From NCBI GenBank assembly GCA_947598825.1, contig CANQFM010000023.1, positions 1 to 43,987 on the forward strand: a DNA stretch of 43,987 nucleotides, written 5' to 3'. The notes below the pieces were generated by a model. The model ran no database searches and was not told where the DNA came from. It saw nothing but the letters and a program-made list of their open reading frames with translations. The stretch is from an uncultured Eisenbergiella sp. (lineage in GTDB: Bacteria > Bacillota > Clostridia > Lachnospirales > Lachnospiraceae). Both the position numbers and the translations under genes were made by a program. Within the stretch, counting starts at the first letter, position 1. Each line of letters opens with the position of its first letter. Positions 15,509-30,381 of the stretch are shown here, piece after piece.

Positions 15509-17224
15509 CTACTGCTGATCCGATCTTATTTCCAATAATTTCACGGGGACCCAGACCCCGTCCTCTTTTACCTGCGCCATCTCAAAGACCGCCTCTCCGT
15601 ATTCCCACCCGTAGGTGATCCGGATCCAGCTCTGTCCTTTCTGCGGCGCAATTTCTTTGACCTCTCCGCCCTCCAGGTGCAGACATTTTTCCAGCGCATA
15701 ACCCGGATCGGTAAAACCGCCATAATAGTCCGGATCGGCGCCTTCCTCAAAATGCTGCTGCAGCCATTCGCCCGCCGTCTGACCTCCCAGATCATAAGCG
15801 GTGAAATCCCAGATCCCCTGCCCATAGGCATTGATACAGTCGTCCATGGCGGCGACCTCTGTATACATCCGGGACAGCCAATTTGTCACCTGATAGGTTT
15901 CCCCGTCCGGCTCCAGCGTAAGCCAGCCTTTCCACATATACAGCTCCGGCGATGACGTGAGGGCCGTCACCCGGTATTCGATGCGATACTCTTGAATAGA
16001 ATCCTCCGGCATATAGGAAACTTCCAGATCTTCACCGGCAAAAGGGCTGGAAAAGCCCATGACGCGCACGCCGTCCTGCATAAATATTCCAAACTCTTCC
16101 GCCCTTTCCTGGAGTTTTGGGGCCAGCATGGCATAGACGGTATCCGCGTCCCGGTTCACCGCAGCAGACGCAAATTCCCGGGCAAAGGCCAGTTGGGCAT
16201 CGTCCTTTGTCAGCCTGGCTCCGTCCCGTTCCGATGAAGCTTGCACCGGATCGCTCATACAGCCGACCGCTGTCAGCGCCACCAGCAATACGGCTGCCGC
16301 AGTCACGCTCCCTTTGGCTTTCCGATACCGGAGCGCATTTTGTATACGGATGCAGACGTCATTCTCCCCAAATGCCAGAGGCGTCCCCTTTAACCCTCTG
16401 GCCGGAGCCGCCAGGGCCAGCAGCGCGTCTCCGTAATCCGCCCGCCCCTGTCCATCCAGGTTTTTCAGCACGCTTTCGTCACAGGAGATCTCCATATCGC
16501 GCCCCATGAGCCAAAAGGACACCCACAGCAGGGGATTGAACCAGTGGAGCAGCAGAATCAGCCAGGCCGCCGCCTTGATCTGATGGTCATGCCGCCGGAT
16601 ATGCGCCCGCTCATGCTCCAGGATCAGTCGGACATCGGAGGAAGAAAGTCCCTTTGGCAGATAGATCCTGGGGCGAAAAATTCCCAGCACAAAGGCCGTT
16701 TTTATCCGATCCGTTTCATAAACGCCTTCTTCAACGCGCACGGCAAACGCTACGGTCCGTTTCAGTTTCCAAAAGGAATACAGGCTTCCCAAAAGAAACA
16801 AGCAGACGCCGACCAGCCACAAAACCCCCAACAGAAAAAATATGCTTTCTCCATCCGCCGCTGTTTTCGCAAGTCCCTGCGCCCGCCCCAAAGATAGGCT
16901 GCCTGCGCCCGTTTCCGTACTCAGGGCTGCAGCTATTTGCGCCAGCCCTACGGCCTGTCCGGCGGCATCCGGCGTCCCGCCGCTTCGCATGCCCATTGTC
17001 CCGATCCGAAAAAGCGCCGCCCGGCCCAGTTGTCCCAGGCCCTGAACGCTGAATACAGAAGAAAAGGATACTGGCAGCGCCGCCCGGAGAAATACGAGAA
17101 GCCACAGCAAATAAGAGTAAATCTTCGGGGCGCGCTTAAGCAGCAGGCGCACGACAAGCACTGCCAGAGCCGTCCAGGACGCCGCCGCGCTGAGCCTGAA
17201 TAATTCCGTCATCCAGCCCTCCAT
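15509..17224 (-). CDS. BlaR1/MecR1-like M56 metallopeptidase with a non-penicillin-binding sensor
   Basis: 571 residues. The N-terminal 320 are BlaR1-like: membrane segments near 14-30, 36-52 and 127-150, then the cytosolic zinc protease with HERAH at 204-208 and a third ligand in DMEISCDE near 245, then a fourth hydrophobic segment at about 308-320 ending AVGC. Beyond it about 250 residues should be extracellular. They lack any SxxK penicillin-binding motif and instead look like two small NTF2/DUF4829-like lobes, so the signal is probably not a beta-lactam bound covalently. On sensing, the protease would inactivate the neighbouring BlaI repressor. Its ATG touches the blaI stop (TGAATG), with GAGGAGGG as ribosome site. 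Confidence 0.85.
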   Translation of the reverse strand: MEGWMTELFRLSAAASWTALAVLVVRLLLKRAPKIYSYLLWLLVFLRAALPVSFSSVFSVQGLGQLGRAALFRIGTMGMRSGGTPDAAGQAVGLAQIAAALSTETGAGSLSLGRAQGLAKTAADGESIFFLLGVLWLVGVCLFLLGSLYSFWKLKRTVAFAVRVEEGVYETDRIKTAFVLGIFRPRIYLPKGLSSSDVRLILEHERAHIRRHDHQIKAAAWLILLLHWFNPLLWVSFWLMGRDMEISCDESVLKNLDGQGRADYGDALLALAAPARGLKGTPLAFGENDVCIRIQNALRYRKAKGSVTAAAVLLVALTAVGCMSDPVQASSERDGARLTKDDAQLAFAREFASAAVNRDADTVYAMLAPKLQERAEEFGIFMQDGVRVMGFSSPFAGEDLEVSYMPEDSIQEYRIEYRVTALTSSPELYMWKGWLTLEPDGETYQVTNWLSRMYTEVAAMDDCINAYGQGIWDFTAYDLGGQTAGEWLQQHFEEGADPDYYGGFTDPGYALEKCLHLEGGEVKEIAPQKGQSWIRITYGWEYGEAVFEMAQVKEDGVWVPVKLLEIRSDQQ

Positions 17225-17626
17225 TCAGCGGCCCTCCTCTCTTTTGGATCCGTCGGAAAGTCCCGTCTGTTTCTCCCGGCTCTGATCGATCAGCCGTTTT
17301 AATTCCTCGGCCTCCTGTTCCGACAGGCTGCATCCGTCCAGAAAAGCCGCCACAAACCTGGGCAGGGACCGGGAAAACCGTTTCCCCACCAGTTCCCTGC
17401 TGTCATAGCTTAAGATCTCTTCTTTTTTCACCCGGGACGTCACTATGGAATCCGTGTTCTGCAAAAGCCCCCTCTCGCAGAGCTTGCGCAACATGGTATA
17501 GGTGGTGGATTTCTTCCATCCAAGCCTGGGCAGGCACTCCTTATACAACTGCGTAGAAGTTACCGGCTCCAACTCCCAGACGATTTCCATCAGGCGGTAT
17601 TCCCCGTCGCACAGCTTATAATCCAT
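17225..17626 (-). CDS. blaI: BlaI/MecI/CopY family repressor
   Basis: 133 residues. MDYKLCDGEYRLMEIVWELEP, TSTQLYKECLPRLGWKKSTTYTMLRKL and GLLQ are the winged helix of the BlaI family; the helical C-terminal part (FVAAFLDGCSLSEQEAEELKRL) is the dimerisation and cleavage region. It binds operators as a dimer and is removed by the M56 protease encoded next. The start at 17626 follows GGAGGAG; upstream in-frame codons belong to the promoter. Autoregulation is likely because a palindrome overlaps the -10 box. The target genes beyond its own operon are unknown; MATE is a neighbour but points the other way and has no such site. Confidence 0.85.
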   Translation of the reverse strand: MDYKLCDGEYRLMEIVWELEPVTSTQLYKECLPRLGWKKSTTYTMLRKLCERGLLQNTDSIVTSRVKKEEILSYDSRELVGKRFSRSLPRFVAAFLDGCSLSEQEAEELKRLIDQSREKQTGLSDGSKREEGR

Positions 17627-17660
17627 ATCTTCTCTCCTCCCGTCTTTTCGCTGTCGTCCG

Positions 17661-17699
17661 ATCGGTTTATATGAATAGATCGGTTTATTTATATAAACC
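17661..17699 (-). promoter_or_regulatory. probable BlaI operator
   Basis: GGTTTATTTATATAAACC (17682-17699) is palindromic at 16 of 18 positions. A second, direct copy of ATCGGTTTAT lies exactly 18 bp away (17661-17670 and 17679-17688). The palindrome overlaps the -10 box of the blaI promoter. It does not match the classic TACA-TGTA blaI operator closely. Confidence 0.6.
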
Positions 17700-17725
17700 A
17701 TATCACGGCAGGAGGAAAAAAGCAA
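17697..17725 (-). promoter_or_regulatory. promoter of blaI-blaR1
   Basis: TTGCTT (17725-17720), 17-bp spacer and TATGGT (17702-17697), running straight into the operator-like repeats. Confidence 0.55.
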
Positions 17726-17775
17726 CCGCATTTTTTCTGTTTTCTGTCCGATGCTTCTGCTATTTGGCCCCTCTG

Positions 17776-19641
17776 TCAATCTGTCTTTTGATAGTACCCT
17801 GCCTGCGCCTCCCAGAGCTGCTTATACTTCCCCTCCCTGCTGAGCAGTCCCTCATGTCCGCCGTCCTGAACGATTTGCCCGCTGTCGAACACCAGGATCC
17901 TTTCGCAGAATCTGCAGCTTGAGAGCCTGTGGCTGATGAATACCGACGTTCGGTCCTTTGAGATTTTATTGAAATTTTCATATACCGCCGCCTCGGCAAG
18001 CGGGTCTAAGTTCGCGGTCGGCTCGTCCAAAATTACGAACGGCGCCTCTTTATAGAGGGCGCGCGCCAGCGCGGTCTTCTGTTCCTCACCGCCTGAAAAA
18101 TCCATGCCCTCTATATCGTATTCCCTGCCCATGCAGTAATCGAGCGCGGATTTTCTCTCCTTTTTTGCCTTTTTGTCAAGGGCGTTAAGCTTTTCCCCCA
18201 TTCCCGCCCGTTCAAGGCAGTCCCTCGCCCTCTTTTCCTCATAGCCAAAGCCCGCAGATACGTTGTCTCCAAGAGAAAAATCAAACAACCGAAAGTCCTG
18301 AAAAACCACAGAAAACAGGGACATATACTCGTCATACCGATACCGCGTAACGTCGATTCCGTTAAGCAGAATTTTCCCCTCAGTCGGGTCATAGAGGCGG
18401 CAGAGAAGCTTGATAAAGGTCGATTTCCCCGAGCCGTTTTCCCCGACGATCGCGATTTTGTCGCCGATCTTAAACTTCATCGAGACATGACGAAGCGCCC
18501 AGTTTTCGATGCGCGGGTACTGAAAGCTCACGTCACGAAACTCGATCTCGTAGTCGAGATCGTCCCGTTTTTCGACTGCAAGCGTGCCCTTATACATGCT
18601 GTTCGGCAGATCGAAAAATTCATAGGTCGTTTTCAGATACCCCGTGTTGAAACGAAGCTCCGTGATGCCCGTCGCCAGATCGTCAATGGCGCTGACGAAA
18701 CGACTTATCGCGCCCTCGTACAAAACGAAGCTGCCTATCCCGAAAGCCCCGCAAAAGGCCTTTGCCGCGATGTAGAGGTGGATCAGGATCTGCATGGCAG
18801 CGTTTTTCGGAGCGTCAAGAGCGCCGAAAATAAGGTTGATCCTCTGGAGCTTTAAGAGCCACGACGGCCGCAGGGTGTATTTACGGTACTCGTCCAAAAC
18901 GATCGGATGTAGCCCGAAAACCGTCATATCAGCGCCCCAAAGTTCACCGTACGCGCCGTAACGGCGGTTGTTGAGCGAAATCTCCGACCTCGCTTCATCC
19001 TCGCGCTTTCTCTGGATGACCCTGAGCCTTGCGGTCAAAAAGGAAAACATTCCGATCAATAGGAGCATGATTGTCGCAGACCACGGGGAATTGATAAATC
19101 CCAATATTCCGCCGAACCGCCCCGGGGCCAGTGCAAAGAGCGCGGCGACCGTTAAGGACAGCGACAAAACAAGCTCCGTCAGCGATTCTATCAGATTCGG
19201 CACGCTGTATAAAACGTTCATCAGCCCGCCGTAGATGGTTCGGGTGTTCGCGTCTATGCGCTCGCTCAAAAGCCTTACATCGGGATCTTCAAGATGTTCA
19301 TACTGCAGCCTGCAGTTTTCATCGAACATAATAAGGAAATAACGGGCGTAACTCTGACTGTCCAAAACCGATGTCTTCATCTGCATGACGCGGGTGATCA
19401 CCGAAAACAAAAATCCGAAAAGGACGGTCAGGCACGCAAATAAAATTAACCTGTCCTTATCTCTTGCGCCCGAGATTTCGTCAAGGAGAAACGCCGACAT
19501 CGTCAGTGAAAAATACGCCGATGCCCTCTGCAGGATCCTCTGGAGGATCGCAAAGCTCCAGCACTTCGGCGCATAACTGCGCCATAGCCTTATCGCCCGC
19601 CGGAGGCAGGAAAAATCATCTTTCAGGGTGATCTTAGCCAT
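17776..19641 (-). CDS. ABC exporter half-transporter 2, cassette A
   Basis: 621 residues: a membrane domain (residues about 20-330) and a nucleotide-binding domain with GENGSGKST, VVFQDFRLFDFSL as Q-loop region, signature FSGGEEQK, VILDEPTANLD and FISHRLSS. The signature deviates from LSGGQ/E by FSGG. It forms a heterodimer with the upstream gene; both keep the catalytic Glu. The membrane domain has a long loop with DPDVRLLSERIDANTRT, typical of the Lachnospiraceae exporters linked to LytTR/GHKL regulators. ATG 19641 overlaps the previous stop by 8 bp and has GGAGGT above. Substrate unknown; there is no C39 peptidase domain, so leader-peptide cleavage is not expected. Confidence 0.85.
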   Translation of the reverse strand: MAKITLKDDFSCLRRAIRLWRSYAPKCWSFAILQRILQRASAYFSLTMSAFLLDEISGARDKDRLILFACLTVLFGFLFSVITRVMQMKTSVLDSQSYARYFLIMFDENCRLQYEHLEDPDVRLLSERIDANTRTIYGGLMNVLYSVPNLIESLTELVLSLSLTVAALFALAPGRFGGILGFINSPWSATIMLLLIGMFSFLTARLRVIQRKREDEARSEISLNNRRYGAYGELWGADMTVFGLHPIVLDEYRKYTLRPSWLLKLQRINLIFGALDAPKNAAMQILIHLYIAAKAFCGAFGIGSFVLYEGAISRFVSAIDDLATGITELRFNTGYLKTTYEFFDLPNSMYKGTLAVEKRDDLDYEIEFRDVSFQYPRIENWALRHVSMKFKIGDKIAIVGENGSGKSTFIKLLCRLYDPTEGKILLNGIDVTRYRYDEYMSLFSVVFQDFRLFDFSLGDNVSAGFGYEEKRARDCLERAGMGEKLNALDKKAKKERKSALDYCMGREYDIEGMDFSGGEEQKTALARALYKEAPFVILDEPTANLDPLAEAAVYENFNKISKDRTSVFISHRLSSCRFCERILVFDSGQIVQDGGHEGLLSREGKYKQLWEAQAGYYQKTD

Positions 19642-21466
19642 TTTGCGAAACCTCCTCCCGATAATATTTTGCCTGAACGTCAAACAGTTCGCGGTATTTT
19701 CCGTTTTTCTTCATCAGTTCTTCATGGGTGCCGGCCTCGGCAAAATTCCCGCCGTCCAAAAGAAAGATCCTGTCGCAGAAACGGGTCGAAGCAAGGCGGT
19801 GAGAGATAAATACCGAGGTGGCATTTTTCGATATCTCGTTGTAGCGGCGATACATTTTATCCTCGGCGATGGGGTCCAGCGCCGCCGTAGGCTCGTCTAA
19901 GATCATGCAGAGCGGGTTTTTGTAGATGAGCCTTGCGAGGAGCAGCCTCTGCTTTTCGCCGCCCGAGAGGTCGACCGCATCGTCGTTTACAGTGCGGTTC
20001 AGCGGCGTTTTCAGCCCCATCGGCAAGCTGTCCGCCTTGCCCTTAAAGCCCGAAAGCTCCACCGCGCGAGAGAGCCTCTCACGATCGATGTCCTCTTCGT
20101 TTACGGTACACGCGATATTTTTTTCGAGCGATACCGGCAGGAGGTTATATTGCTGCGGGATCACCCCGAACAGCGAATACATCTCATCGCGGTTATATTC
20201 AAAAAGCGTGTGGCCGTCTAAAAGCACTTCGCCTTCGTCGGGCAGTATCAGCCCGCACATCAGCCGGACAAGCGTGGTCTTTCCCGCGCCGTTAAGCCCC
20301 ACGAGCGCGATCTTCTCGCCCGCTTCGATCCTGAACGAGACATTTTCAAGAACATTTTTCTCTCCCTGGGGATATTTATAGGTGACGTTTTTAAACTCGA
20401 TGGAGAACGGCCTCTGGGGAACGGCTATGCCCTCTCCGTGGTTGAGCCTGCCGTCGTATTCAAGCAGTTCCCTGAGATCGCTTATCTGCGCCGAGCCCTC
20501 TTTGACCTGCTGGAAACGCCAGGCAATGCCGCCCAAAAGCCCCGCAAGGGAGCTTATTGCGGAGAAATAAAGAACGAACTGCGCCGCGTCGACCTCTCCC
20601 AGCAGAGCCTTATGGATAAGGATCGCATACGCCAGGCCGTCGCGGAATAAAACGATCAGAAAGTCGGTGAGCGAGACGACGAGCCCCCGGCGCTCATGCT
20701 TTTCCTGCCACGCGAGAGCTTCCCCGATATGCTTTGAAAAGCGCTCATGCAGGGGCCCGGCCATGTTGAACAGGCGGATCTCCTTTTGATACTCGAGGTT
20801 TTTGGCGATACTCCATGCGATATAATTTTTCCTGCGCTCGACAGCGTTGCGCCCGTCGCGTTCCCTGTAATGCCTTGCCCACTGCCAGTTTGACATGCGG
20901 CGGCTCACGACCGCGCCGATCACCAGGACGACGACCAGCGCCGGGTGAAGCATCGAGACCGTCGCGCCGAAAAGGAAGAATTTTACGATCTCTCCGACCG
21001 TTTCGGCAAATATCATCGGGAAGTGCGTCGCATGGGAGTGGTCGTTGACGGCAACGTCGGCCCTTTGCCGTATCTCCTGATAGGAAACATCATAACGCAG
21101 ATAATTATCGGCGGTCCGCGTCTTACGCTGTTCCTGGTACATCTGCAAACTGGTGATATGAAATTCGGCGTAGGAAACGACCTTCTGAAGCATACCGTTC
21201 GCGGCGTCGACTATCGCCCGGGAAAGAACGATCCCTGCGATAATAAGCGCGATATAGCCGAAGTCGGAATATCCGCCGATGGCGTTGAGGATCGCAGGGG
21301 AGGCATAGAGCCCGAACGCCGCCGCCAACAGCGACAGCGGCACCACAGCAATCCCGACGAACACCAGAAACCGCTCGTTTTCCCAGAGCAGCCGGTAGAT
21401 GTAGCCCACGCAGGAGAACATACCGTATTTCGGCTTGTGCTTTTTTTCTGTTTCTTTTTTGGACAT
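19634..21466 (-). CDS. ABC exporter half-transporter 1, cassette A
   Basis: 610 residues with a Lys-rich cytosolic N-terminus (MSKKETEKKHKPKYGMFSC), six predicted membrane segments to residue ~330 and an NBD: GLNGAGKTT, GVIPQQYNLL, LSGGEKQR, MILDEPTAALD, FISHRLAS. It is the partner of the next gene (8-bp overlap). The same KPKYGM opening occurs in the paralogue at 26886-28796, supporting cassette duplication. Start 21466 has AGGTGATAAA upstream. The gene is preceded by a 21-bp-period direct repeat, the likely site of its LytTR regulator. Confidence 0.85.
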   Translation of the reverse strand: MSKKETEKKHKPKYGMFSCVGYIYRLLWENERFLVFVGIAVVPLSLLAAAFGLYASPAILNAIGGYSDFGYIALIIAGIVLSRAIVDAANGMLQKVVSYAEFHITSLQMYQEQRKTRTADNYLRYDVSYQEIRQRADVAVNDHSHATHFPMIFAETVGEIVKFFLFGATVSMLHPALVVVLVIGAVVSRRMSNWQWARHYRERDGRNAVERRKNYIAWSIAKNLEYQKEIRLFNMAGPLHERFSKHIGEALAWQEKHERRGLVVSLTDFLIVLFRDGLAYAILIHKALLGEVDAAQFVLYFSAISSLAGLLGGIAWRFQQVKEGSAQISDLRELLEYDGRLNHGEGIAVPQRPFSIEFKNVTYKYPQGEKNVLENVSFRIEAGEKIALVGLNGAGKTTLVRLMCGLILPDEGEVLLDGHTLFEYNRDEMYSLFGVIPQQYNLLPVSLEKNIACTVNEEDIDRERLSRAVELSGFKGKADSLPMGLKTPLNRTVNDDAVDLSGGEKQRLLLARLIYKNPLCMILDEPTAALDPIAEDKMYRRYNEISKNATSVFISHRLASTRFCDRIFLLDGGNFAEAGTHEELMKKNGKYRELFDVQAKYYREEVSQNG

Positions 21467-21520
21467 ATTTTTATCACCTCATGCACCTAGCATAGCATAA
21501 TCGCGTGGGAAAATGTCCGG

Positions 21521-21556
21521 TTCGGGTACAGAATGCTGTTTTGGGGGAACAGAATG
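21521..21556 (-). promoter_or_regulatory. 21-bp-period direct repeat before the cassette A exporter
   Basis: Minus-strand CATTCTGTTCCCCCA (21556-21542) and CATTCTGTACCCGAA (21535-21521) begin exactly 21 bp apart. A TATGCT -10 candidate lies about 22-27 bp downstream (two overlapping copies within 21489-21499) and there is no good -35 box. This is the expected layout of a LytTR/AgrA-type activator site. Confidence 0.7.
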
Positions 21557-21575
21557 TCAATCAGAGATTAGATTG

Positions 21576-22247
21576 TCAGAAGTCAGAGGAAAGAAATAAC
21601 GGTATCAGGATTTCCGCCGTGAAGCCGCCGTCCTCGCTGTCTGCCGAAAAATAGCCGTCGTACTTTTTGACGATGGATTCGACCCGCGAGAGCCCGAAGC
21701 CACAATCTACGCCCTTGGAAGATACGAAATGGCTTCCGCTTTTCGCATGCTTTTTGCCTGCGGCATTCGTCACCAAAAGATAAAACTGCGTGTTTTTCTT
21801 GCCCATATAGACGCGGATAAAGCGGGACTGCTGATCGAGCCGCCTGTTTTCCTCGATTGCGTTGTCCAGAAGATTTCCGATGATAACGCAGAGGTCGATG
21901 TCGGAAACGGGCGTGCCATCGGGGATCTTCGCCTTGGCATTCACGGGGATCTCATTCTGGGCGGCGATATTCAGCTTGCTGTTTAAGATCGCGTCGACCA
22001 TCACCCGCCCCGTCTTTATGACCGTGTCTACCGTCGTCAGGTCGTCGTTGAGGTCGGAAAGATAGCGGTTCACCTCGTCGTATCTGCCAAGGGCCATCGA
22101 AGCCTGCATCGCCTGAATGTGGTTGTGATAGTCATGCCGCCAGCCCCGCATTTTCCGATACATCGACTCGACCTCGCCGCAGTATTTCTGCAGCAGCTCA
22201 GATTGGTAACGTTCGATTCGTTTGTTGATCAGCTTATCTAAAATCAT
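21576..22247 (-). CDS. GHKL sensor kinase without membrane sensor, cassette A
   Basis: 223 residues. The phosphoacceptor region MRGWRHDYHNHIQ (His in HDY) follows a 25-residue coiled N-terminus; the ATP domain has IIGNLLDNAIEE (N box) and GFGLSRVESIVKKYDG (G box). This is the cytosolic half of AgrC/NatK-like kinases. The usual 5-7 membrane segments are entirely absent and there is room for none, so input must come from a soluble signal or a partner such as the exporter. Start ATG 22247. It follows the LytTR regulator by 52 bp and is paralogous to 28960-29625. Confidence 0.85.
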   Translation of the reverse strand: MILDKLINKRIERYQSELLQKYCGEVESMYRKMRGWRHDYHNHIQAMQASMALGRYDEVNRYLSDLNDDLTTVDTVIKTGRVMVDAILNSKLNIAAQNEIPVNAKAKIPDGTPVSDIDLCVIIGNLLDNAIEENRRLDQQSRFIRVYMGKKNTQFYLLVTNAAGKKHAKSGSHFVSSKGVDCGFGLSRVESIVKKYDGYFSADSEDGGFTAEILIPLFLSSDF

Positions 22248-22299
22248 CGCCTTGCCCTTAAATCTCTCAATAGGTTTTCCTAATTTTCAGCCCAATTTT

Positions 22300-22992
22300 T
22301 CAGAACAGTTCAATGATCCTCTTCCCTACGGTCTTTCCCATGCCCCTGCTAATCGGGACGGCTTCGCCGCTTTTTAGTATCACCTCAGCGCGGTTTATTC
22401 TCAGAACCTCCCGCAAGTTTACGATAAAAGAACGCTGAACGCGTAAAAAATACTCGTCAAGCCGCGTTTCAAGCTCTGAGATCGGGGTTTTCAGACGATA
22501 TTCCCCAAAAACCGCATGTATCACCGAATACTGCCGCTGCGCCTCAATAAAGCGTATTTCGTGAAGCGGCAGAGCGATCTCCCCGCCGTCAAAGGGCACA
22601 AGAATTTTCTTCTCGGCTCGTGAGATCTTAACAACCGCGCGGTCGAGAACCTCGCCAAGCTTTCTCGCCGTGACCGGCTTCAAAAGATAATGCAATGCCT
22701 CGACCTCGTAGCCCTCGGAGAGGAAGTCGGAATATCCCGTGATAAAGACGATCTGCACCGCCTCGGCCCTCGCACGAAGCGACTTGGCGAGTTCGACCCC
22801 GTTCATCCCCGGCATTTCGATGTCCAACAAAAGGATATCGGGGCAGTGATCAGCGTAATCGAACAGCAGCGCCTCGGCCGACGGATATTCGAGGACGCTT
22901 ACGCCCGCCCCCGACCGCAAGGACCAGTCGAGAACGAGAGACTTTATATAGGCGCGTTCGGAAGCGTTGTCGTCGCAGAGGGAGATAAGCAT
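22300..22992 (-). CDS. LytTR-family response regulator, cassette A
   Basis: 230 residues. Receiver domain with the acidic pair CDDNASE at 6-12, phospho-Asp in ILLLDIEMPGMNG near 55, FITGYS and the Lys in YLLKPV near 105. LytTR DNA-binding domain from about 130 (EIRFIEAQRQYSVIHA, LRVQRSFIVNLREV, VPISRGMGK). It is AgrA/LytR-like: phosphorylation by the adjacent GHKL kinase should drive binding to direct repeats. The likely target is the repeat at 21521-21556. ATG 22992 follows AGGAG. Paralogous to 29686-30381. Confidence 0.9.
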   Translation of the reverse strand: MLISLCDDNASERAYIKSLVLDWSLRSGAGVSVLEYPSAEALLFDYADHCPDILLLDIEMPGMNGVELAKSLRARAEAVQIVFITGYSDFLSEGYEVEALHYLLKPVTARKLGEVLDRAVVKISRAEKKILVPFDGGEIALPLHEIRFIEAQRQYSVIHAVFGEYRLKTPISELETRLDEYFLRVQRSFIVNLREVLRINRAEVILKSGEAVPISRGMGKTVGKRIIELF

Positions 22993-23029
22993 GGTGGGGA
23001 CTCCTTACATTTGACGGAGCGCTGCCCTG

Positions 23030-23785
23030 TCAGTCCTTCACCGCCACAGCGGTAAATTCGCCCGGCAATTTTTCATTTTCCCAGGCGGGATGCTCGTCAA
23101 ACCGTTTCAAGGTAAAACCGTTTTGCAGGATCGAATTGAGGATTTCGCTGACGGTATATTTTCGGTAAATACACTTTGGCATCCGTCTGCGGACATCTTC
23201 CTCATAAAACCGGGCGTGCGCCATTTCGCCCTCGAAGGTTTCCGTTGCAAAATAACTCATCGTAGGCGTCCCCAGCCCCAGGCTGTCCTGTATTTTGTTG
23301 AACGGGTGGAAATCGCTGCATATCATTTTCCCGCCCGGTTTCAGCAGGGCATACATGATCTTCATGAACTCGTCAATATCATGGAAATAGTGCAGAATGC
23401 CTCCCTCCATAAACACAACGTCAAAATAAGCTTTATATTTGGACAGGTCGATCTCCAGAATATCGCAGACTTCAAAATGGATCCGGACGTTTGCCGCCTC
23501 CGCCGTCTCACAGGCGTATCTCTTATTGTCCTCGGATATGTCAAATATCGTTACGTCTGCGCCCAGCAAAGCCAGCGGGATCGCTTTCTTCCCGCAGGAA
23601 CCGCAGATATTCGCGATCCGCACTCCCTCATATTTATCGAAATATTTCGCATACCGTCTGAGCATCCCCACAGGATCCGCCACGTCTTCGCGCGCTCTTT
23701 CGGAAGGCGTGCCGGCTGTTTTCACCCAAAAATCATAGGCGTCAAATTCCCATGCCACTTTATTCTGTCTGCTGTAATCCTTCAT
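23030..23785 (-). CDS. class I SAM-dependent methyltransferase
   Basis: 251 residues starting MKDYSRQNKVAWEFDAYDFW. The SAM loop is unusual: RIANICGSCGKKAIPLALLG, with Cys in glycine positions of the GxGxG motif; the acidic VTIFDIS, FDVVFMEGGILHYF and LLKPGGKMICSDF are normal. Small-molecule methyltransferase of unknown substrate. GTG at 23794 has the better GGAGG spacing and may be the true start; ATG 23785 is given because it matches the usual N-terminus. It stands between degV and cassette A with a 37-bp gap to the regulator, so it may be co-transcribed with the cassette. Confidence 0.75.
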   Translation of the reverse strand: MKDYSRQNKVAWEFDAYDFWVKTAGTPSERAREDVADPVGMLRRYAKYFDKYEGVRIANICGSCGKKAIPLALLGADVTIFDISEDNKRYACETAEAANVRIHFEVCDILEIDLSKYKAYFDVVFMEGGILHYFHDIDEFMKIMYALLKPGGKMICSDFHPFNKIQDSLGLGTPTMSYFATETFEGEMAHARFYEEDVRRRMPKCIYRKYTVSEILNSILQNGFTLKRFDEHPAWENEKLPGEFTAVAVKD

Positions 23786-23837
23786 TTTTTGCACTTTGCC
23801 TCCTATCTTCCGCTTCATCAGGGTCGTTGGCGCTTTT

Positions 23838-23853
23838 GCGGTCCGCCGACCGC
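23838..23853. other. short perfect hairpin after degV
   Basis: GCGGTC and GACCGC form a 6-bp stem with a 4-base loop, 8 bp past the degV stop. No T-run follows on either strand, so a terminator role is doubtful. Confidence 0.3.
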
Positions 23854-23860
23854 TATCCGT

Positions 23861-24757
23861 TTACGCTTTTTTCAAAAATCCCACCCCAAGAGGATACGGG
23901 CCGGTATGCACGGCGATCGTGGCGCCGATCTGATAGATCCGGATCTGTTCCACATCCAGGACATTGCGAAATCTCTCTTTGATCTCGGAAAGAAAAGCTT
24001 CCGCTTCCGAAATATCGTAGCCATACCCCACATCCACCACATAGTCCGCCATATTCTCCCCGGCGGCTATCAGGGCTTTCACATGGTTGTCCAGCAGATT
24101 CATCACTGCTTCCATAGATTTCCTGCGGCTTCTCGCCAGCCCGGACGGAAAGATCTCGCCTTCCTTCAACGTGATCAGGGGCCGGATCTTTAACACGGAG
24201 GCTGCGATACCGGAAAGCTTGCCGATCCGCCCCCCATGCTTTAAATAGTCCACATTCCCTACCGTGAAAAAGATCCTTCCCGTATCCCGGATGCTCAAAA
24301 GGCGTCGGATGGCTTCCTCATAGGGCACGCCCTGCTCCTTCAGCTTTACCGCCTCCAGCACATACATGCCCTGCAGGACGGTGTTCACCGTGCAGTCGAT
24401 GACCTCTATCTTCGCGTCCGGATAAGTCTCCAGCAGAATATTCCTGGCGTTCATCGCCGCCTGATAGGAACCGCTGAACTTTACGGTAATACAGATGCAG
24501 ATAATGGGGATCCCCTGCTTCACATATTTTTCAAAGGAAGCGATATAGTCCTCGATCGACGGCAGTGAAGATTTGGGGAAAACAACATTTTCCTTTTCCA
24601 CCATCAGATCGTAAAACTTCCGTATAGGCATTTCCTCTATTTCTTTATAATAAGTCTTATCGTCAAAGGAGACGTAGAACGGAACTACCTCTACTCCCTT
24701 GTCCTTCGCCAACTGTTCGGGCAGATCGCAGGACCCGTCGCTGATGATCTGGTACAT
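23861..24757 (-). CDS. DegV family fatty-acid-binding protein
   Basis: 298 residues. The N-terminus YQIISDGSCDLP and VVPFYVSFDDKTYY are the DegV opening; FPKSSLPSIEDY contains the Ser-Pro/Thr motif contacting the lipid carboxylate, SGSYQAAMNAR is the second lipid-binding stretch and DYLKHGGRIGKL the conserved HGGR. FakB-type proteins bind a fatty acid so that FakA can phosphorylate it for phospholipid synthesis. No fakA (Dak domain) is in this window, which is usual because several degV copies are scattered. ATG 24757 follows AAGGAAAGAAGG. Confidence 0.9.
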   Translation of the reverse strand: MYQIISDGSCDLPEQLAKDKGVEVVPFYVSFDDKTYYKEIEEMPIRKFYDLMVEKENVVFPKSSLPSIEDYIASFEKYVKQGIPIICICITVKFSGSYQAAMNARNILLETYPDAKIEVIDCTVNTVLQGMYVLEAVKLKEQGVPYEEAIRRLLSIRDTGRIFFTVGNVDYLKHGGRIGKLSGIAASVLKIRPLITLKEGEIFPSGLARSRRKSMEAVMNLLDNHVKALIAAGENMADYVVDVGYGYDISEAEAFLSEIKERFRNVLDVEQIRIYQIGATIAVHTGPYPLGVGFLKKA

Positions 24758-24822
24758 AATTTTCCTTCTTTCCTTGTGCGTAAAACTTTGTGATTTGGTT
24801 TCCGCATTTTGTTATATAGTTC

Positions 24823-24850
24823 ATTTTACTACATGCAGGGGATTTTGCAA
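24823..24850 (-). promoter_or_regulatory. promoter of degV
   Basis: TTGCAA (24850-24845), 16-bp spacer and TAAAAT (24828-24823). The remainder of the 246-bp gap to the cassette B exporter gene (24758-25003) shows no gene. Confidence 0.45.
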
Positions 24851-25003
24851 GCCATTTTTCCGGCAAATACCTTGCGTCAAATGCCTTGCGGCCCAAATCG
24901 GGATATGATAGAAGAAACGTTGGTAAAATCCCAAAAACAAATTCACGCAAAAGGGTAAGACCATCGCGAATCTCAAGGGTCTGACAAGACGCCTGCCATT
25001 TCC

Positions 25004-26902
25004 TTAAAGGTACTTCTTGTCCTTCTCATATTGCCTGGCCTTCTCGTAGTATTTGGCCTGGGCCTCCCAGAGTTCCCGGTATTTCCCCCGGGCAGCGAGA
25101 AGTTCTTCATGGCTCCCCCGCTGGACGATCCCGCCGTCCTCAAACACCAGGATCTGTTTGCAGAATCGGCAGCTTGACAGCCTGTGGCTGATGTAGATCG
25201 CGGTGCGATCCCCTGAAATTTCGTCAAACTTCCGGTAGATCTCCGCTTCCGCGACAGGATCCAGGCTGGCCGTGGGTTCGTCCAGGATAATAAAAGGCGC
25301 GTCTTTATAAAGGGCCCGGGCGATGGCGATCTTCTGCCGCTCTCCGCCGGAGATCTGGATCCCGTCTTCGTCAAAATCCTTATACAGCCAGGTATCCAGG
25401 CCGTCCGGCAGTTCTTGCAGCCGCTCCTTAAAGCCGGCGTCCTCCAGACACTTTACCGCCCTTTCTTCGTCCACGTCACAGGAACCCGCCACATTCTGAC
25501 CCAACCGATGGGCCATCAGCCAGAAGTCCTGGAACACCACGGAAAAGATAGCCATGTATTCCTCATAGCGGTATTTTTTAATATCCACGCCGTTTAAGAG
25601 GATCTCCCCCTCCTGGGGATCGTAAAGGCGGCAGAGAAGCTTGATAAAGGTGGATTTCCCGGAGCCGTTCTCTCCCACCACCGCCAGCTTGTTCCCCACC
25701 TCAAAGCGAACGGAAACGTTCTTCAGTGCCCAGCGTTCCGTATTGGGATACCGGAAACTCACGTTCCGAAACTCCACGTTATATTTCCTGTCCCGCCGTT
25801 TTTCCGTGGTCAGGCTTCCCTGATACATCCTGTTTGGCAGATCCAGAAAATCAAAAATCTTTTCCACGAACCCGGCGTTGATCCGAAGATTATTTGCCGT
25901 CGTCAAGAAACCCATCAGACTGAGGATCAGCTTGCTGACGGCGCCCACATACTGCGCCACCTCCCCGATGCCGAAGGCTCCCGCATAGGCTTTCAGGCAG
26001 ACAAACAGATAGATCGCGCCCAAAAGGGTCTTTTCGCCCAGAACCTTGAACATCCGGCGGAATACAAGACCGCTTTTATTCTGCCTGTCAAAGATCCCGC
26101 CCACAAAAAAGGTCCTTTCTTTAAAGGCATAATATCCCGCGATCTTCGCCTGAGGATACATCCGATACTCCGCCATGCTGTCGGCGTCCGGCCGCAGATA
26201 TCCAAAGTGGCCAAACAGACGGTTTCCCAGCCTTGCGGAATCGGCCAGGGACGCATACTTTTCCGAGGACTTCGCCTCCTGCCGGGGAGCAATCAGGGCG
26301 ATCAGGATCATCGAGGCAAAAAAAGCGAATACCGTCAGCGGGTGGTTTAAAAAAACCAGCTTGCTCTCCTTTGGGACCCGGCTGAGAAAAAGGCCCGCCG
26401 AAAGCCCCACCGCGCCGGCCAGCATGAAGAAATGCCGGACAAAGTTTTCAAAATTCCAGGAGATCTTGGCAAAACCCCATCCGCTCCAGCCAGCGTTTTG
26501 CTGGATCTGGTCGTAAAGATCCCGGATCCTCTGATCCTCCACGTCGCAGTAATCCATGGTCAAAAACTTTTCTTCCTCGATCCGTTCCATAGTGATCCAG
26601 AACAGGGCGTTACGGCTCTCATAGGCGTGATACAAAAGGCCCCCTGCGATCCCGAAGGCCGCCGCCGAAAGGATCGCGGCAAGGGACCAGAACGTCAGGG
26701 CTTCCGCCCGCCTCTCTCCCGCCAGTTCCCCGATCAGCCTTCCCATGATAAAAAGGGCCGTGTAGGAGGAAGCCGTATCGGCCAGGGCCTTTAAAACGGC
26801 GCAGGGGAACAGGGATTTATTTTTGGAGGCCAGGAGCCGGATAGCGCGGATATTGATTTTCACAGCCGCCGGCCAGCTTATTTTTTCAGATCCCGTTGAC
26901 AA
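25004..26902 (-). CDS. ABC exporter half-transporter 2, cassette B
   Basis: 632 residues: membrane domain to ~350, NBD with GENGSGKST, SVVFQDFWLM, ISGGERQK, IILDEPTASLD and YISHRLSS. The NBD core (STFIKLLCRLYDP) is almost identical to its cassette A counterpart. Catalytic Glu is present. The start is taken as TTG 26902, eight bases after AAAGGAGG and inside the end of the previous gene (17-bp overlap); the frame can be read to ATG 26956 but that region codes for the upstream protein. Partner of the next entry; substrate unknown. The tail ends in Lys/Tyr-rich YEKDKKYL. Confidence 0.85.
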   Translation of the reverse strand: MSTGSEKISWPAAVKINIRAIRLLASKNKSLFPCAVLKALADTASSYTALFIMGRLIGELAGERRAEALTFWSLAAILSAAAFGIAGGLLYHAYESRNALFWITMERIEEEKFLTMDYCDVEDQRIRDLYDQIQQNAGWSGWGFAKISWNFENFVRHFFMLAGAVGLSAGLFLSRVPKESKLVFLNHPLTVFAFFASMILIALIAPRQEAKSSEKYASLADSARLGNRLFGHFGYLRPDADSMAEYRMYPQAKIAGYYAFKERTFFVGGIFDRQNKSGLVFRRMFKVLGEKTLLGAIYLFVCLKAYAGAFGIGEVAQYVGAVSKLILSLMGFLTTANNLRINAGFVEKIFDFLDLPNRMYQGSLTTEKRRDRKYNVEFRNVSFRYPNTERWALKNVSVRFEVGNKLAVVGENGSGKSTFIKLLCRLYDPQEGEILLNGVDIKKYRYEEYMAIFSVVFQDFWLMAHRLGQNVAGSCDVDEERAVKCLEDAGFKERLQELPDGLDTWLYKDFDEDGIQISGGERQKIAIARALYKDAPFIILDEPTASLDPVAEAEIYRKFDEISGDRTAIYISHRLSSCRFCKQILVFEDGGIVQRGSHEELLAARGKYRELWEAQAKYYEKARQYEKDKKYL

Positions 26903-28796
26903 AAAAATCCCCTCCTTTCTGATAATATCTTGCCTGAATCTCAAACAGGCGGGCATACTTTTGGCCCTTTTTCATAAGGCTGTCATGGGTACCTTCCTCG
27001 GCGATCCTCCCTTCCTCCAGATACAGGACCCTGTCGCAGAATCTGGTAGAGGCCAGCCGATGGGAGATAAAGACCGAGGTTTTCCCCGCCGTCATCTCGT
27101 GATACTTTTGATACAGGTCCCGCTCCGCCAAAGGGTCCAGCGCCGCCGTAGGCTCGTCCAGCATCAGCACCGCCCCGTCCTTATAGAGCGCCCGGGCCAG
27201 CATCAGCCGCTGGTACTGGCCTCCGGAAAGCAGGATGCCGTCCAGGTACACGCTACGCCCCAGATGGGTATCAAGGCCTGCGGGAAGGCTGGCTACCGTT
27301 TCCGTAAGCCCTGCCTTTTCAATGCAGTCCTCCACCTTTTCCCGATCCACGTCTTCGGCGGACTGGGCCACCGTCTCCGCCACGGTGATATCAAAGAGGT
27401 TGTAGTGCTGGAACACCGCCGAGAACAGACTGTAATACTCTCTCCGGTCAAACAGCCGGATATCGGTGCCGTTTAGCATCACCCGGCCCTCGTCCGGATC
27501 TAAAAGCCCGGTCATGAGCTTGACCAGCGTGGTCTTGCCCGCGCCGTTTAAACCCACCACCGCCACCTTTTCTCCCCGCCCTACGGTCAGATCCAGGCTG
27601 TCGATGGTTTTTTGCTCCGCTCCCGGGTAGGTATAGCTCACCTTTTCCAACCGGATTTCATAGGTATCCGCCTGCGGGACCGGGATCCCTCCCTCAAAGC
27701 AAAAAGGTTCCTCATAATACAGACATTCCAAAAGGCTGGAAAGATCCAGACATTGATTTTTCAGCTCCAAAATCTGGTTTAAAACGCCGCTTAACTGAGC
27801 GTTAAAGGAACTAACCGCCGAAAAATAGAGCATGAACTCCGCCGCGCTTAAGCTTTTGTCCAGGCACATATGAAGCAGGATAAAACAGGCGGCTCCGGTT
27901 CTGAGAAACTCCAGGGCCGTACTGGAAAAGGTACCGATCAGATAAAAGGCATGCTCCCGTTTTGCGTAGGCCTGACGGGCCAAAAACGCCTTATCGGTGA
28001 GCCGCCCGATCCAGCTTCCCAGGCCGAAAAGCCGGATGTCCTTGGCCACGGACAGATCCCGGGGAAGCCCTACCAGATACCAGAGCTGTCTGTCCAGATG
28101 GGAAAGCTCCTCCCGGTGCCGGTAATTGTACTTATAGACATAGGCGGATATGAGAAAATCCAGAAGGCTGAGCGACGCCGCCACTCCAAAAAGCAGCGGA
28201 TGAACGTAGGTCAGCATGGCGGTAAAAAAGCAAAACATCGCAGACTGAACCCCAAGATTTTGCAGGATATGCCAGATGACCTCACAGGCAGAGTTATTGG
28301 CGTTGCAGCAGTCTCCGGCCCTTTCTACCAGCCGCTGCCACTTCGTGTCCAGACAGTTGCAATAGGATGTGTTGGCCTTCTTATCCGAAAGCTCCTTCAG
28401 GATATAGGAGCGCAGCTCCACCTGATACGCCATTTTCAACCCCCAGGCACCGATCCCGTTTCCCAGGATCTCCACCGCTACGTCGGAAAGGAAACATCCC
28501 CCGAGCAGGATGGCCGCCGTCAGCAAAAGCTCGTTTGCTGGACTTTTCGCCTCCAGCCGGGCCAGGATCATCGGAGATAAGTAAAATCCGAAAATGCCGC
28601 TTGCAATGTTAAAAACGATTTGGAAAAACAAAAGAACCGGGACCTCCGGCCGGTAGCGAAAGGCCCGTGAGAACATAAAGCCCACGCAGCGCCCCATGCC
28701 GTATTTGGGCTTTTCCTTTTTGGAGACCGCCTTTTGACGGACTTCCTCCTGAGGATTCTTTTTTTCACTCTTGTTGTTTTTGGATTCCCCGGACAT
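26886..28796 (-). CDS. ABC exporter half-transporter 1, cassette B
   Basis: 636 residues. Highly charged 32-residue N-terminus, then KPKYGMGRCVGFMF, six membrane segments and an NBD with GLNGAGKTT, SAVFQHYNLFD, LSGGQYQR, LMLDEPTAALD and FISHRLAS. The SYCNCLDTKWQRL/AGDCCNANNSACE stretch in the membrane domain is unusually Cys-rich. ATG 28796 has a GGGGGC ribosome site; in-frame codons upstream include the -10 box and are not translated. It is preceded by the 21-bp-period repeat at 28861-28892 and a TATAAT box. Confidence 0.85.
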   Translation of the reverse strand: MSGESKNNKSEKKNPQEEVRQKAVSKKEKPKYGMGRCVGFMFSRAFRYRPEVPVLLFFQIVFNIASGIFGFYLSPMILARLEAKSPANELLLTAAILLGGCFLSDVAVEILGNGIGAWGLKMAYQVELRSYILKELSDKKANTSYCNCLDTKWQRLVERAGDCCNANNSACEVIWHILQNLGVQSAMFCFFTAMLTYVHPLLFGVAASLSLLDFLISAYVYKYNYRHREELSHLDRQLWYLVGLPRDLSVAKDIRLFGLGSWIGRLTDKAFLARQAYAKREHAFYLIGTFSSTALEFLRTGAACFILLHMCLDKSLSAAEFMLYFSAVSSFNAQLSGVLNQILELKNQCLDLSSLLECLYYEEPFCFEGGIPVPQADTYEIRLEKVSYTYPGAEQKTIDSLDLTVGRGEKVAVVGLNGAGKTTLVKLMTGLLDPDEGRVMLNGTDIRLFDRREYYSLFSAVFQHYNLFDITVAETVAQSAEDVDREKVEDCIEKAGLTETVASLPAGLDTHLGRSVYLDGILLSGGQYQRLMLARALYKDGAVLMLDEPTAALDPLAERDLYQKYHEMTAGKTSVFISHRLASTRFCDRVLYLEEGRIAEEGTHDSLMKKGQKYARLFEIQARYYQKGGDFFVNGI

Positions 28797-28829
28797 GGTT
28801 TGCCCCCTTTTCAGATAACAGTTTTCTCC

Positions 28830-28835
28830 ATTATA
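28830..28835 (-). promoter_or_regulatory. -10 box of the cassette B exporter
   Basis: Perfect TATAAT (28835-28830) 33 bp above the ATG. At 17 bp upstream only CGTCCT is found, no -35 consensus, as expected for an activator-dependent promoter. Confidence 0.6.
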
Positions 28836-28860
28836 AACCCCAAATTCCAAAAAGGACGTT

Positions 28861-28892
28861 TGGGGGACGAAATGCGCATTGTGGGGGACGAA
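28861..28892 (-). promoter_or_regulatory. 21-bp-period direct repeat before the cassette B exporter
   Basis: TTCGTCCCCCA occurs twice, perfectly (28892-28882 and 28871-28861), starts 21 bp apart. The proximal copy ends 25 bp above TATAAT. The GTCCCCCA core is shared with the cassette A repeat (GTTCCCCCA). Confidence 0.8.
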
Positions 28893-28959
28893 TCGTCAGA
28901 AACGCTTTTGCCCTTAGAAAGATCAGGGCAGAGAGATCAAAAACACATTTGCTTATTTG

Positions 28960-29625
28960 TCACTTTATGGCCTCCGGAAGCAGGATCTCCGTGGTAAAAG
29001 CCCCGTCCTCTGAGTTGCGGGACAGATACCCGCCCAGCCTCTTTACCACCGCGTCGATCCTTTCCAGGCCAAGCCCGTGATCGCTACCCTTGGTGCTTTT
29101 GAAAAGATCGCCGAACTTTTTGAGTTTGCCCCGATCCGTAAAGTTCAGAAAAGAAATATAGAGCTGGACGCCCTTCATGTCCATATAGACCCGGATCACC
29201 CGTTTTTCCGGCGGCAGAGAGACGCTGGCCTCGATGGCGTTGTCAAAGAGGTTGCCCAGGATCGTGCAAAGATCCACCGCCGAGAGGCGTAAGAGCGCGG
29301 GGATATGAGCGTCCGCCTCCACGCGGATCCCCCGGTCGTTGGCAAGGGCGATCTTAGAATTTATGATGGCGTCCGTCATGGGATTGCCGGTCTTGATCAC
29401 CGTATCCACGGTGTAGAGATCCGTCTCCAGGTCGTCGAGATAGGAAATGACCGCCGCCAGGTCGCCCTTTTGGGCATAGGTTTTTAAGACCTGGATGTGG
29501 TTGCGGTAATCGTGCCGCCAGCCCCGCATCTTCCGATACATATTGTCGACCTCGGCGAAGTGGGTCTTGAGCAGTTCCTGCTGGTACGCCTCTATTTTTC
29601 GGTCTGTTTTTCGGGAAAATCTCAC
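28960..29625 (-). CDS. GHKL sensor kinase without membrane sensor, cassette B
   Basis: 221 residues, GTG start at 29625 after AGGAGAGGTGACAAC. MRGWRHDYRNHIQ carries the phosphoacceptor His; TILGNLFDNAIEAS and HGLGLERIDAVVKRLGG are N and G boxes. Like its cassette A paralogue it begins with a ~30-residue charged helix (RKTDRKIEAYQQELLKTHF) and has no membrane segment. The two kinases share the VDTVIKTG, NSK and MYRKMRGWRHDY blocks, so they are recent relatives. It lies 60 bp after its LytTR regulator and 163 bp before the exporter pair. Confidence 0.85.
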   Translation of the reverse strand: MRFSRKTDRKIEAYQQELLKTHFAEVDNMYRKMRGWRHDYRNHIQVLKTYAQKGDLAAVISYLDDLETDLYTVDTVIKTGNPMTDAIINSKIALANDRGIRVEADAHIPALLRLSAVDLCTILGNLFDNAIEASVSLPPEKRVIRVYMDMKGVQLYISFLNFTDRGKLKKFGDLFKSTKGSDHGLGLERIDAVVKRLGGYLSRNSEDGAFTTEILLPEAIK

Positions 29626-29685
29626 GTTGTCACCTCTCCTGCTGCCTCATAATACCCCGCCCTCACTTTTTTACTCAAAGCTCGA

Positions 29686-30381
29686 TCATGCCTGCCGTAT
29701 GATCGCCTGATTGACCATTTCATACGCGCCTCTGGGAAGGGGGATCGTGCCGCCGTCCCTCAGAAAGATCTCCGTCCTGGTCACGCGGGAGATAAAGCGC
29801 AGATTGACGAGGTAGGATCGGCCTACCCGCAGAAAGCGCTCATCCAGCTCTGCTTCGATCTCTTTCAGCGTTTTCTTTACGGTATAGTCCCTCTTTGCAT
29901 AGATGGTGACGTAGTTTTTGACCACCTCGACATAACGGATCTCATAGATCGGGAGAACCGCCGTCTCTGCCGAAGTCCCGATCACAAGCTTCTTTCCGTC
30001 GGTCTTTTGCCTTTCCATAGCGCGATCCAGGGTGGAAAAAAATTTTTCCGGCGAGACGGGTTTTAACAGATAATGCAGCGCCGCCACCTCGTACCCCTCG
30101 GCGATATACTCCGAATAACCCGTGATAAAGACGATCTGGATCAGCTTGTTTTTTGCCCGAAGGCGCTTCGCCAGTTCCACGCCGTTCATCCCCGGCATCT
30201 CGATATCCAGAAGCAGGATGTCGGGCGCAGCATCCTCATAGGCAAACCAGAAAGCCTCGGCGGTGGGAAATTCACAGATACTCACGTCCCTCCCGGAGCG
30301 CTGCGCCCACTTTTTCACAAGGGCGTTCAGAGAAGCGCGTTCCTCCGAAGCGTCGTCGCAAATACAGATCTTAACAGACAT
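29686..30381 (-). CDS. LytTR-family response regulator, cassette B
   Basis: 231 residues. CDDASEE acidic pocket at 7-13, phospho-Asp in ILLLDIEMPGMNG, FITGYSEYIAEGYEVAALHYLLKPV, then a LytTR domain (EIRYVEVVKNYVTIYAK, FLRVGRSYLVNLRFI, IPLPRGAYEM). Nearly the same receiver surface as the cassette A regulator, so cross-talk is conceivable. Likely target: repeat at 28861-28892. ATG 30381 follows AAGGAG. The PHP gene stops only 12 bp upstream, so it can be read from that operon. Confidence 0.9.
   Translation of the reverse strand: MSVKICICDDASEERASLNALVKKWAQRSGRDVSICEFPTAEAFWFAYEDAAPDILLLDIEMPGMNGVELAKRLRAKNKLIQIVFITGYSEYIAEGYEVAALHYLLKPVSPEKFFSTLDRAMERQKTDGKKLVIGTSAETAVLPIYEIRYVEVVKNYVTIYAKRDYTVKKTLKEIEAELDERFLRVGRSYLVNLRFISRVTRTEIFLRDGGTIPLPRGAYEMVNQAIIRQA

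Follow-up and report, generated by a model that had tools for sequence, protein, structure and literature searches.

The 43,987-nucleotide stretch of DNA analyzed here (the window), from an uncultured Eisenbergiella sp., is part of a 3.05-Mb genome (G000, contig 23) and carries on its minus strand eight genes that form two cassettes, at 22992-17776 and 30381-25004. Each cassette encodes a LytTR-type response regulator (RR), a GHKL histidine kinase (HK), and two ABC half-transporters (ABCA and ABCB). With a little better than even confidence, we propose that each one is a self-contained transporter-coupled two-component circuit that has its own exporter as target and as most likely input. The comparisons described below support, at the level of sequence, the gene set, the missing sensor, the binding-site architecture, the single target, and the difference between the sites of the two cassettes; we infer DNA binding and activation by the regulator, the contact between exporter and kinase, and the signal and substrate.

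Predicted LytTR sites and the exporter as predicted target

The gap between the kinase and exporter genes holds a LytTR-like direct repeat with the consensus CAATTCRTCCCC-9-CAATTCGTCCCC (ATTCGTCCCC type, 21-nt period), which overlaps the end of the kinase gene in some loci. We evaluated its occurrence in 80 named loci, the best of 540 stretches encoding some kinase relative (E 1e-3 or better). A strict repeat pair was present in the 350 nt following the kinase gene in 38/80 loci, always with a period of exactly 21, and was found neither upstream of the RR gene (0/71) nor after ABCB (0/61), nor, on average, in 50 shuffles (0). A matrix search detected a site in 74/80 loci, the matrix being trained on these same loci and so not independent of them. 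The six loci without a matrix site were L094, L126, and four whose contig ends within 200 nt of the kinase (L076, L107, L118, and L119). The second repeat extends into a hairpin that resembles a terminator and has a T run in 50 of the 74 loci, and a −10-like hexamer lies behind the repeat in 45 of them, versus 24.9 expected by shuffling; the best hexamer starts 21 to 30 nt past the repeat in 68. Repeats with a 21-nt period before a predicted target promoter are the arrangement of a canonical LytTR system, and passages of PMC6193735 describe 9-nt direct repeats with a 12-bp spacer as the promoter arrangement of LytTR regulatory systems (LRS).

Outside the 80 loci, we examined 16 gaps at a threshold of at least 10/12 matches, which 5.8% of shuffles reached. 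A period-21 repeat was located between genes in W1, W2, L039, L046, L051, and L052, the matches in L047 and L054 looked like chance, and eight gaps had none at this threshold. Among 20 loci that we retrieved from the window's own family, the matrix gave a site in L037, L038, and L040 to L047 (10 loci).

When we allowed up to 3 mismatches in the window's own genome, the ATTCGTCCCC-type pattern matched cassette 2 (1 mismatch) and one unrelated place (3 mismatches), and its reversed control matched once. The cassette 1 pattern matched cassette 1 only, with no control match. Each pattern failed to find the site of the other cassette in this genome, and, given these different half-sites, no cross-talk would be expected. 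Eleven of 12 chosen named genomes had exactly one site at up to 1 mismatch, always at the kinase-exporter junction and without any control match; the twelfth, that of Roseburia inulinivorans, carries a site of its own that departs from the pattern at 2 positions. The regulator and kinase genes have no recognizable LytTR site of their own.

Loci in which the exporter has become detached from the kinase were considered as evidence against coupling, which we rejected, since the four examined (the G030, G029, L094, and L126 genomes) keep a repeat before an exporter located elsewhere. G030 contains a regulator-kinase pair alone with a decayed site, and the exporter pair lies ∼68 kb away on the same contig, behind an intact site and the last twenty or so kinase codons. 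The exporter of G029 is on another contig, behind a 21-nt-period repeat of the distant-clade type (by eye), and the only 1-mismatch site in the L126 genome precedes an exporter gene. Where foreign genes separate kinase and exporter (L044, L106, and L111), the site remains on the exporter side; L106 has a NUDIX-like gene (by eye) between site and exporter and a second copy of the site before its other inserted genes. As the site stays with the exporter when the latter is detached or separated, it belongs to the exporter. The repeat found once per genome at the junction and the repeats before the four detached exporters strongly support the prediction that the regulator has a single target, its own exporter. 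This link from regulator to exporter through DNA sites, likewise strongly supported, was not part of an original prediction made from the window sequence alone.

A second trace of cassette break-up was seen in L155 (5400-5496), where a remnant of the kinase C terminus and a diverged repeat precede an exporter pair.

Conservation of the four-gene order

With both window kinases as queries, we obtained 22 matches in 16 of 150 same-family genomes (the window's own included) at E 3e-65 or better. These were followed, after a sharp gap, by one partial match (7e-42) and by AgrC-like kinases from 3e-35 on. Class-wide, 11/291 genomes had a kinase match at E 1e-60 or better. The titles of the 80 named loci include Lachnospiraceae, Oscillospiraceae, Christensenellaceae, Roseburia inulinivorans, Butyrivibrio, Faecalibacterium, and others. 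The cassette occurs in several families of Clostridia, where it is widespread. A search of plasmid and phage records with HK2 yielded one plasmid match at 33% identity and 40 phage records at <60% identity.

The original prediction proposed a genome survey of the gene order, and the order RR-HK-ABCA-ABCB with all four parts proved to be kept in 67/80 named loci. We scored 54 of these as clean (regulator within 200 nt, both ABC genes full length, first ABC gene within 600 nt of the kinase) and 13 as flawed. The flaws were an enlarged gap or inserted genes between regulator and kinase (L079, L098, L102, and L103), inserted genes between kinase and exporter (L106 and L111), broken or fragmented exporter genes (L096, L101, L105, L131, and L133), or truncation of a gene at the contig end (L084, L134, and also L111). 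In 11 loci, the contig ends too early (L061, L063, L076, L082, L085, L104, L107, L109, L113, L118, and L119), and two (L094 and L126) have no exporter in order but have one elsewhere. Ten of the 20 loci fetched from the same family were intact and in order. Among the others, L044 has two extra open reading frames (ORFs), L047 has its second ABC gene in two frames, and L056, at a contig end, has no regulator. The first ABC gene is missing from L043 and is truncated by the contig end in L040, L042, and L054; L050 stops behind the kinase gene, and L037 and L048 have no adjacent exporter.

Genes inserted inside cassettes L079, L103, L106, L111, and L119 include one for an APH-family phosphotransferase (L079, by Pfam) and others named by eye as encoding a hydrolase, a nucleoside phosphorylase, a dCMP deaminase, and a NUDIX protein.

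No conserved fifth gene accompanies the cassette: apart from relatives of the ABC and RR genes, no family was common to more than 6 of 77 flanks on either strand, the largest being a MATE-like transporter (6/77 loci, named by eye) and DegV (5/77). A small peptide signal was rejected for now, as the largest cluster of similar small ORFs with a sequence resembling a ribosome-binding site beside the cassettes spanned only 2 loci, in agreement with the earlier observation that no peptide precursor is present.

Sensorless kinases and the probable input

As originally noted, both window kinases lack a membrane sensor. Neither has a transmembrane segment, and their stop-to-stop frames (236 aa for HK1 and 228 aa for HK2) are such that no choice of start would add a membrane domain. 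With transmembrane segments called by a simple hydropathy window, none was detected at the N terminus of the kinases of the 80 named loci (including L125). Beyond the catalytic domain and the phosphoacceptor helices, these proteins have just a helix at the N terminus, and Pfam identified no known ligand domain. The catalytic residues H38, N125, D128, and N129 are invariant in 43 aligned kinases, and the nearest solved structure by sequence is the kinase module of Staphylococcus aureus AgrC (PDB 6e52, E 1.9e-8). A kinase with H box and N/G boxes next to a receiver-LytTR regulator constitutes a canonical LytTR two-component pair. In the wider kinase clade, L049, L053, and L056 have no membrane segment, L054 has three, and L048, L050, L051, L052, and L055 have one N-terminal anchor. 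Since only 2 to 6 residues precede the anchor in four of these (and, in the fifth, L048, 27 as called or 2 if Met26 is the start), the anchored kinases have no room for an outside sensor domain.

The half-transporters are ∼600 to 650 aa long with one nucleotide-binding domain (NBD) each, and they scored best with MsbA-type models and ABCB-type chains. The two different subunits occur together, with an A-B distance correlation of 0.92. BmrCD and LmrCD have one degenerate nucleotide site. We found no such degeneration in the cassette subunits, where the Walker-B Glu, the SGG signature, and the H-loop His are invariant in 38 first and 34 second subunits. As both nucleotide sites keep their catalytic residues, the exporter is probably an active pump.

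L151 (3297-14262) contains two tandem exporter pairs beside genes for subtilase-domain and GNAT-domain proteins and has no two-component system.

In the circuit that we propose, the phosphorylated LytTR regulator would bind the 21-nt-period repeat and switch on the exporter promoter just behind it. The terminator-like hairpin located right before the promoter in many loci would otherwise keep the exporter silent. Exporter present at a basal level and working on its substrate (perhaps an amphipathic peptide, a lipid, or a drug) would contact the N-terminal helix/DHp region of the kinase and activate it, and pump demand would raise pump supply, as in Bce modules.

The original prediction had suggested that either the exporter acts as the sensor or the signal is cytosolic. 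The exporter did emerge as the constant partner of the kinase; the sensing itself we infer. Given this constant partnership and the lack of a sensor domain in the kinase, the exporter is the most likely input. This is also suggested by the absence of a sensor or fifth gene, by a parallel second group of kinases (see below), by the precedents of BceS with BceAB and of BmrD with KinA, and by a weak HK-ABCA distance correlation that persists after removal of RR and ABCB (0.29, compared with −0.005 for HK-ABCB; n = 54).

We consider it rather unlikely, although the closest competitor in our assessment, that the kinase is a true cytosolic sensor, on which a substrate or damage signal inside the cell acts directly or via an unlinked protein, the exporter being only the output. 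The kinases of the core clade are indeed soluble, the exporter is the sole recognizable target, and the site kept by detached exporters implies that the link can work in trans. However, the kinase has no known ligand domain, some related kinases are membrane anchored, and no partner gene is conserved nearby. It is improbable that the kinase receives its input from another protein, a membrane sensor whose gene lies elsewhere in the genome, as in three-component systems. Such a protein would account for a kinase without its own sensor, and distant genes would escape the neighborhood test, yet the cassette forms a unit in several Clostridia families with no conserved fifth gene. Homologous loci always accompanied by a membrane sensor gene would have spoken against the original prediction, and a search of the 3.5 kb around the cassette in 77 loci revealed no such constant companion, although it would miss an unlinked gene. 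Finally, despite the resemblance of its catalytic module to AgrC, the kinase is most improbably a degenerate remnant of AgrC, or a constitutive phosphatase/kinase that has no regulated input, with a repeat that sets only the basal exporter level, given the invariant catalytic residues and the site and gene order kept over a wide range of genomes.

Several observations weigh against our preferred circuit, in which the exporter is both target and input. Fifteen of the 19 exporter loci fetched (all but L152, L155, L161, and L163) have neither kinase nor matrix site; repeats of the distant type were sought by eye in a few of these 15, some of which have little upstream sequence. As exporter relatives occur without the kinase, the exporter does not need it, and the detached exporters imply that the two need not be cotranscribed. 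The 2-mismatch site before the L094 exporter was accompanied by two other matches and one control match at that level, L049 and L053 are intact cassettes without a recognized repeat, and the distant, partly membrane-anchored clade has a clear repeat in some loci only. Residue coevolution between HK and exporter gave no usable signal, since the HK-RR positive control did not stand out with 54 cassettes (Meff 47). Of the minimal kinases that belong neither to the cassettes nor to the second group, L179 and L180 are not followed by an ABC ATPase, and none was seen in the 1.9 kb left behind L187. Lastly, the exporters lack a large extracellular domain like that of BceB, and their mode of sensing would therefore not be that of Bce modules.

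A second group of minimal GHKL kinases, 25 to 31% identical to HK2, showed the order regulator-kinase-ABC ATPase in 7/7 loci found in the 150 genomes (L181, L183, L184, L186, L230, L231, and L232). Six of these loci encode two ATPases and two ABC-2 (PF06182-type) permeases, and the contig of L186 ends in the first ATPase gene. Four of the kinases have no membrane segment and three have one. In three of the four gaps examined (L181, L183, and L184 but not L186), TTTATCCCA-type repeats with a 21-nt period precede the first ATPase gene. Other short kinases (L178, L182, and L185) were cut by contig ends. Among long multipass GHKL kinases, 40 were fetched and 38 had room downstream; an ABC ATPase followed in 9 of the 38, as seen by BLAST with the window ABC proteins. 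We tentatively suggest, at somewhat less than even confidence, a general Clostridia class in which a soluble or anchored, sensor-free GHKL kinase would monitor, from the cytosol, whether an ABC transporter is at work. Such a class would have arisen at least two times, around transporters of unrelated fold (a pair of MsbA-like half-exporters, and ABC-2 transporters with two ATPases and two permeases), each time with a LytTR site before the transporter genes.

A related arrangement was seen in L188 (3622-7823), where a LytTR regulator and a GHKL kinase with one membrane segment are encoded with a 660-aa FtsX-type permease and an ATPase, that is, a Bce-like transporter with a GHKL/LytTR pair.

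A widespread circuit of gut bacteria receives here a precise predicted wiring diagram of one regulator, one site, and one target. How a sensorless kinase knows that the pump is needed is the flux-sensing question of Bce systems; here the kinase is soluble, and its purification and reconstitution should be simpler. A genome with two copies that use different sites, together with the single-site regulon, would also provide a compact model for LytTR specificity.

The two cassettes of the window and known systems

The description of two cassettes with the same order and matching proteins holds for the eight genes (Table 1). Pfam identified a receiver and a LytTR domain in both regulators, SPOB_a and HATPase_c_5 (GHKL) in both kinases, and ABC_tran in all four transporters. 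Pairwise identities are 50% for the regulators, 49% for the kinases, 36% for ABCA1 and ABCA2, and 39% for ABCB1 and ABCB2. In a kinase tree (in which row L024_agr is a bad 63-aa capture and the outgroup branches are long), HK1 paired with the kinase of L039, from another genus, and HK2 with Acetatifactor. This grouping with different relatives indicates that the two cassettes are old paralogues, and a recent local duplication was ruled out. ABCA2 probably starts at the ATG rather than at the upstream TTG, because a −10-like box lies between the two.

Table 1. Positions of the cassette genes and candidate regulatory elements in the window
Feature	Position	Strand	Basis
RR1, receiver + LytTR response regulator, cassette 1	22300..22992	-	Pfam; phosphoacceptor stretch LLLDIEMPGMNG same in RR2
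HK1, minimal GHKL histidine kinase, 223 aa, no transmembrane segment	21576..22247	-	Pfam; stop-to-stop frame 236 aa
Cassette 1 LytTR-type direct repeat, CATTCTGTTCCC-9-CATTCTGTACCC, period 21	21524..21556	-	Sole genome match within 3 mismatches
Candidate −10 element TATGCTATGCT, cassette 1 exporter promoter	21489..21499	-	Position by eye
ABCA1, first exporter half-transporter, 610 aa	19634..21466	-	Pfam
ABCB1, second exporter half-transporter, TTG start as called, overlaps ABCA1	17776..19683	-	Pfam
RR2, receiver + LytTR response regulator, cassette 2	29686..30381	-	Pfam; alignment with RR1
HK2, minimal GHKL histidine kinase, 221 aa, no transmembrane segment	28960..29625	-	Pfam; stop-to-stop frame 228 aa
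Cassette 2 LytTR-type direct repeat, CGATTCGTCCCC-9-CATTTCGTCCCC, period 21	28863..28895	-	Genome pattern search, matrix
Candidate −10 element TATAAT, cassette 2 exporter promoter	28830..28835	-	Position by eye
ABCA2, first exporter half-transporter, start ATG 28796 preferred over TTG 28850	26886..28796	-	Pfam, −10-like box
ABCB2, second exporter half-transporter, start as called	25004..26956	-	Pfam

A gene for an S-adenosylmethionine (SAM) methyltransferase (23030-23818) lies 37 nt upstream of RR1. It was rejected as a part of the cassette, as a 78% identical copy was found only after the second exporter gene of L044 (13266-14048) and none was named among the neighbors printed for the 80 loci. 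Directly behind cassette 1, at 15509-17779, are genes for a BlaI-like repressor and a BlaR1-type M56 peptidase; the repressor frame, as called, overlaps the end of ABCB1 by a few bases.

No named system of this composition was known to the original prediction, and we found no description of one in the open-licence full-text literature, which is weak evidence of absence. NatK-NatR of Bacillus subtilis is reportedly a two-component system that regulates the operon of an ABC transporter, the sodium-extruding NatAB. NatR is of the LytTR type and adjacent. The likeness is that a two-component system controls an ABC transporter operon. With Agr systems, the cassettes share the GHKL catalytic module (6e52) and the LytTR regulator, and AgrA binds direct repeats. 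In contrast to Agr, the cassette kinases have no multipass membrane sensor, and the cassette flanks contain no conserved gene for a signal peptide or processing protease.

LRS such as HdrRM and BrsRM consist, in the passages of PMC6193735 devoted to them, of an autoregulated LytTR regulator with a membrane inhibitor; 9-nt direct repeats, mostly with 12-bp spacers, precede the target promoter, and some LRS are linked to ABC transporter genes. The cassette repeat likewise has a period of 21 and precedes its target promoter, but the cassettes have a receiver domain and a kinase, no membrane inhibitor beside the regulator, and no strict repeat pair upstream of the RR gene, which argues against positive autoregulation. 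In B. subtilis, BmrD of the exporter BmrCD is an identified interaction partner of the kinase KinA, according to a passage of PMC7828314, providing a case of an ABC exporter subunit that partners a histidine kinase. KinA, however, is a sporulation kinase and not a dedicated exporter regulator.

The closest functional parallel concerns Bce modules, in which, as passages of PMC10314905 describe, a kinase without a dedicated sensing domain, BceS, is activated through the ABC transporter BceAB and the regulator raises transporter expression. The cassettes resemble them in having a kinase without an extracellular sensing domain, an adjacent transporter, and a predicted regulator site before the transporter genes. 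BceS contains both transmembrane helices and a HAMP domain (same passages of PMC10314905), whereas the cassette kinase is a GHKL protein that is soluble in the core clade (five distant relatives have one anchor). BceB has a large extracellular loop (a passage of PMC7828314), whereas the cassettes contain a pair of MsbA-like half-exporters, and their regulator is of the LytTR type. Because it would work like a Bce module but lacks two Bce structural features, we regard the cassette as a separate form of transporter-coupled two-component system and not as a member of the Bce group.

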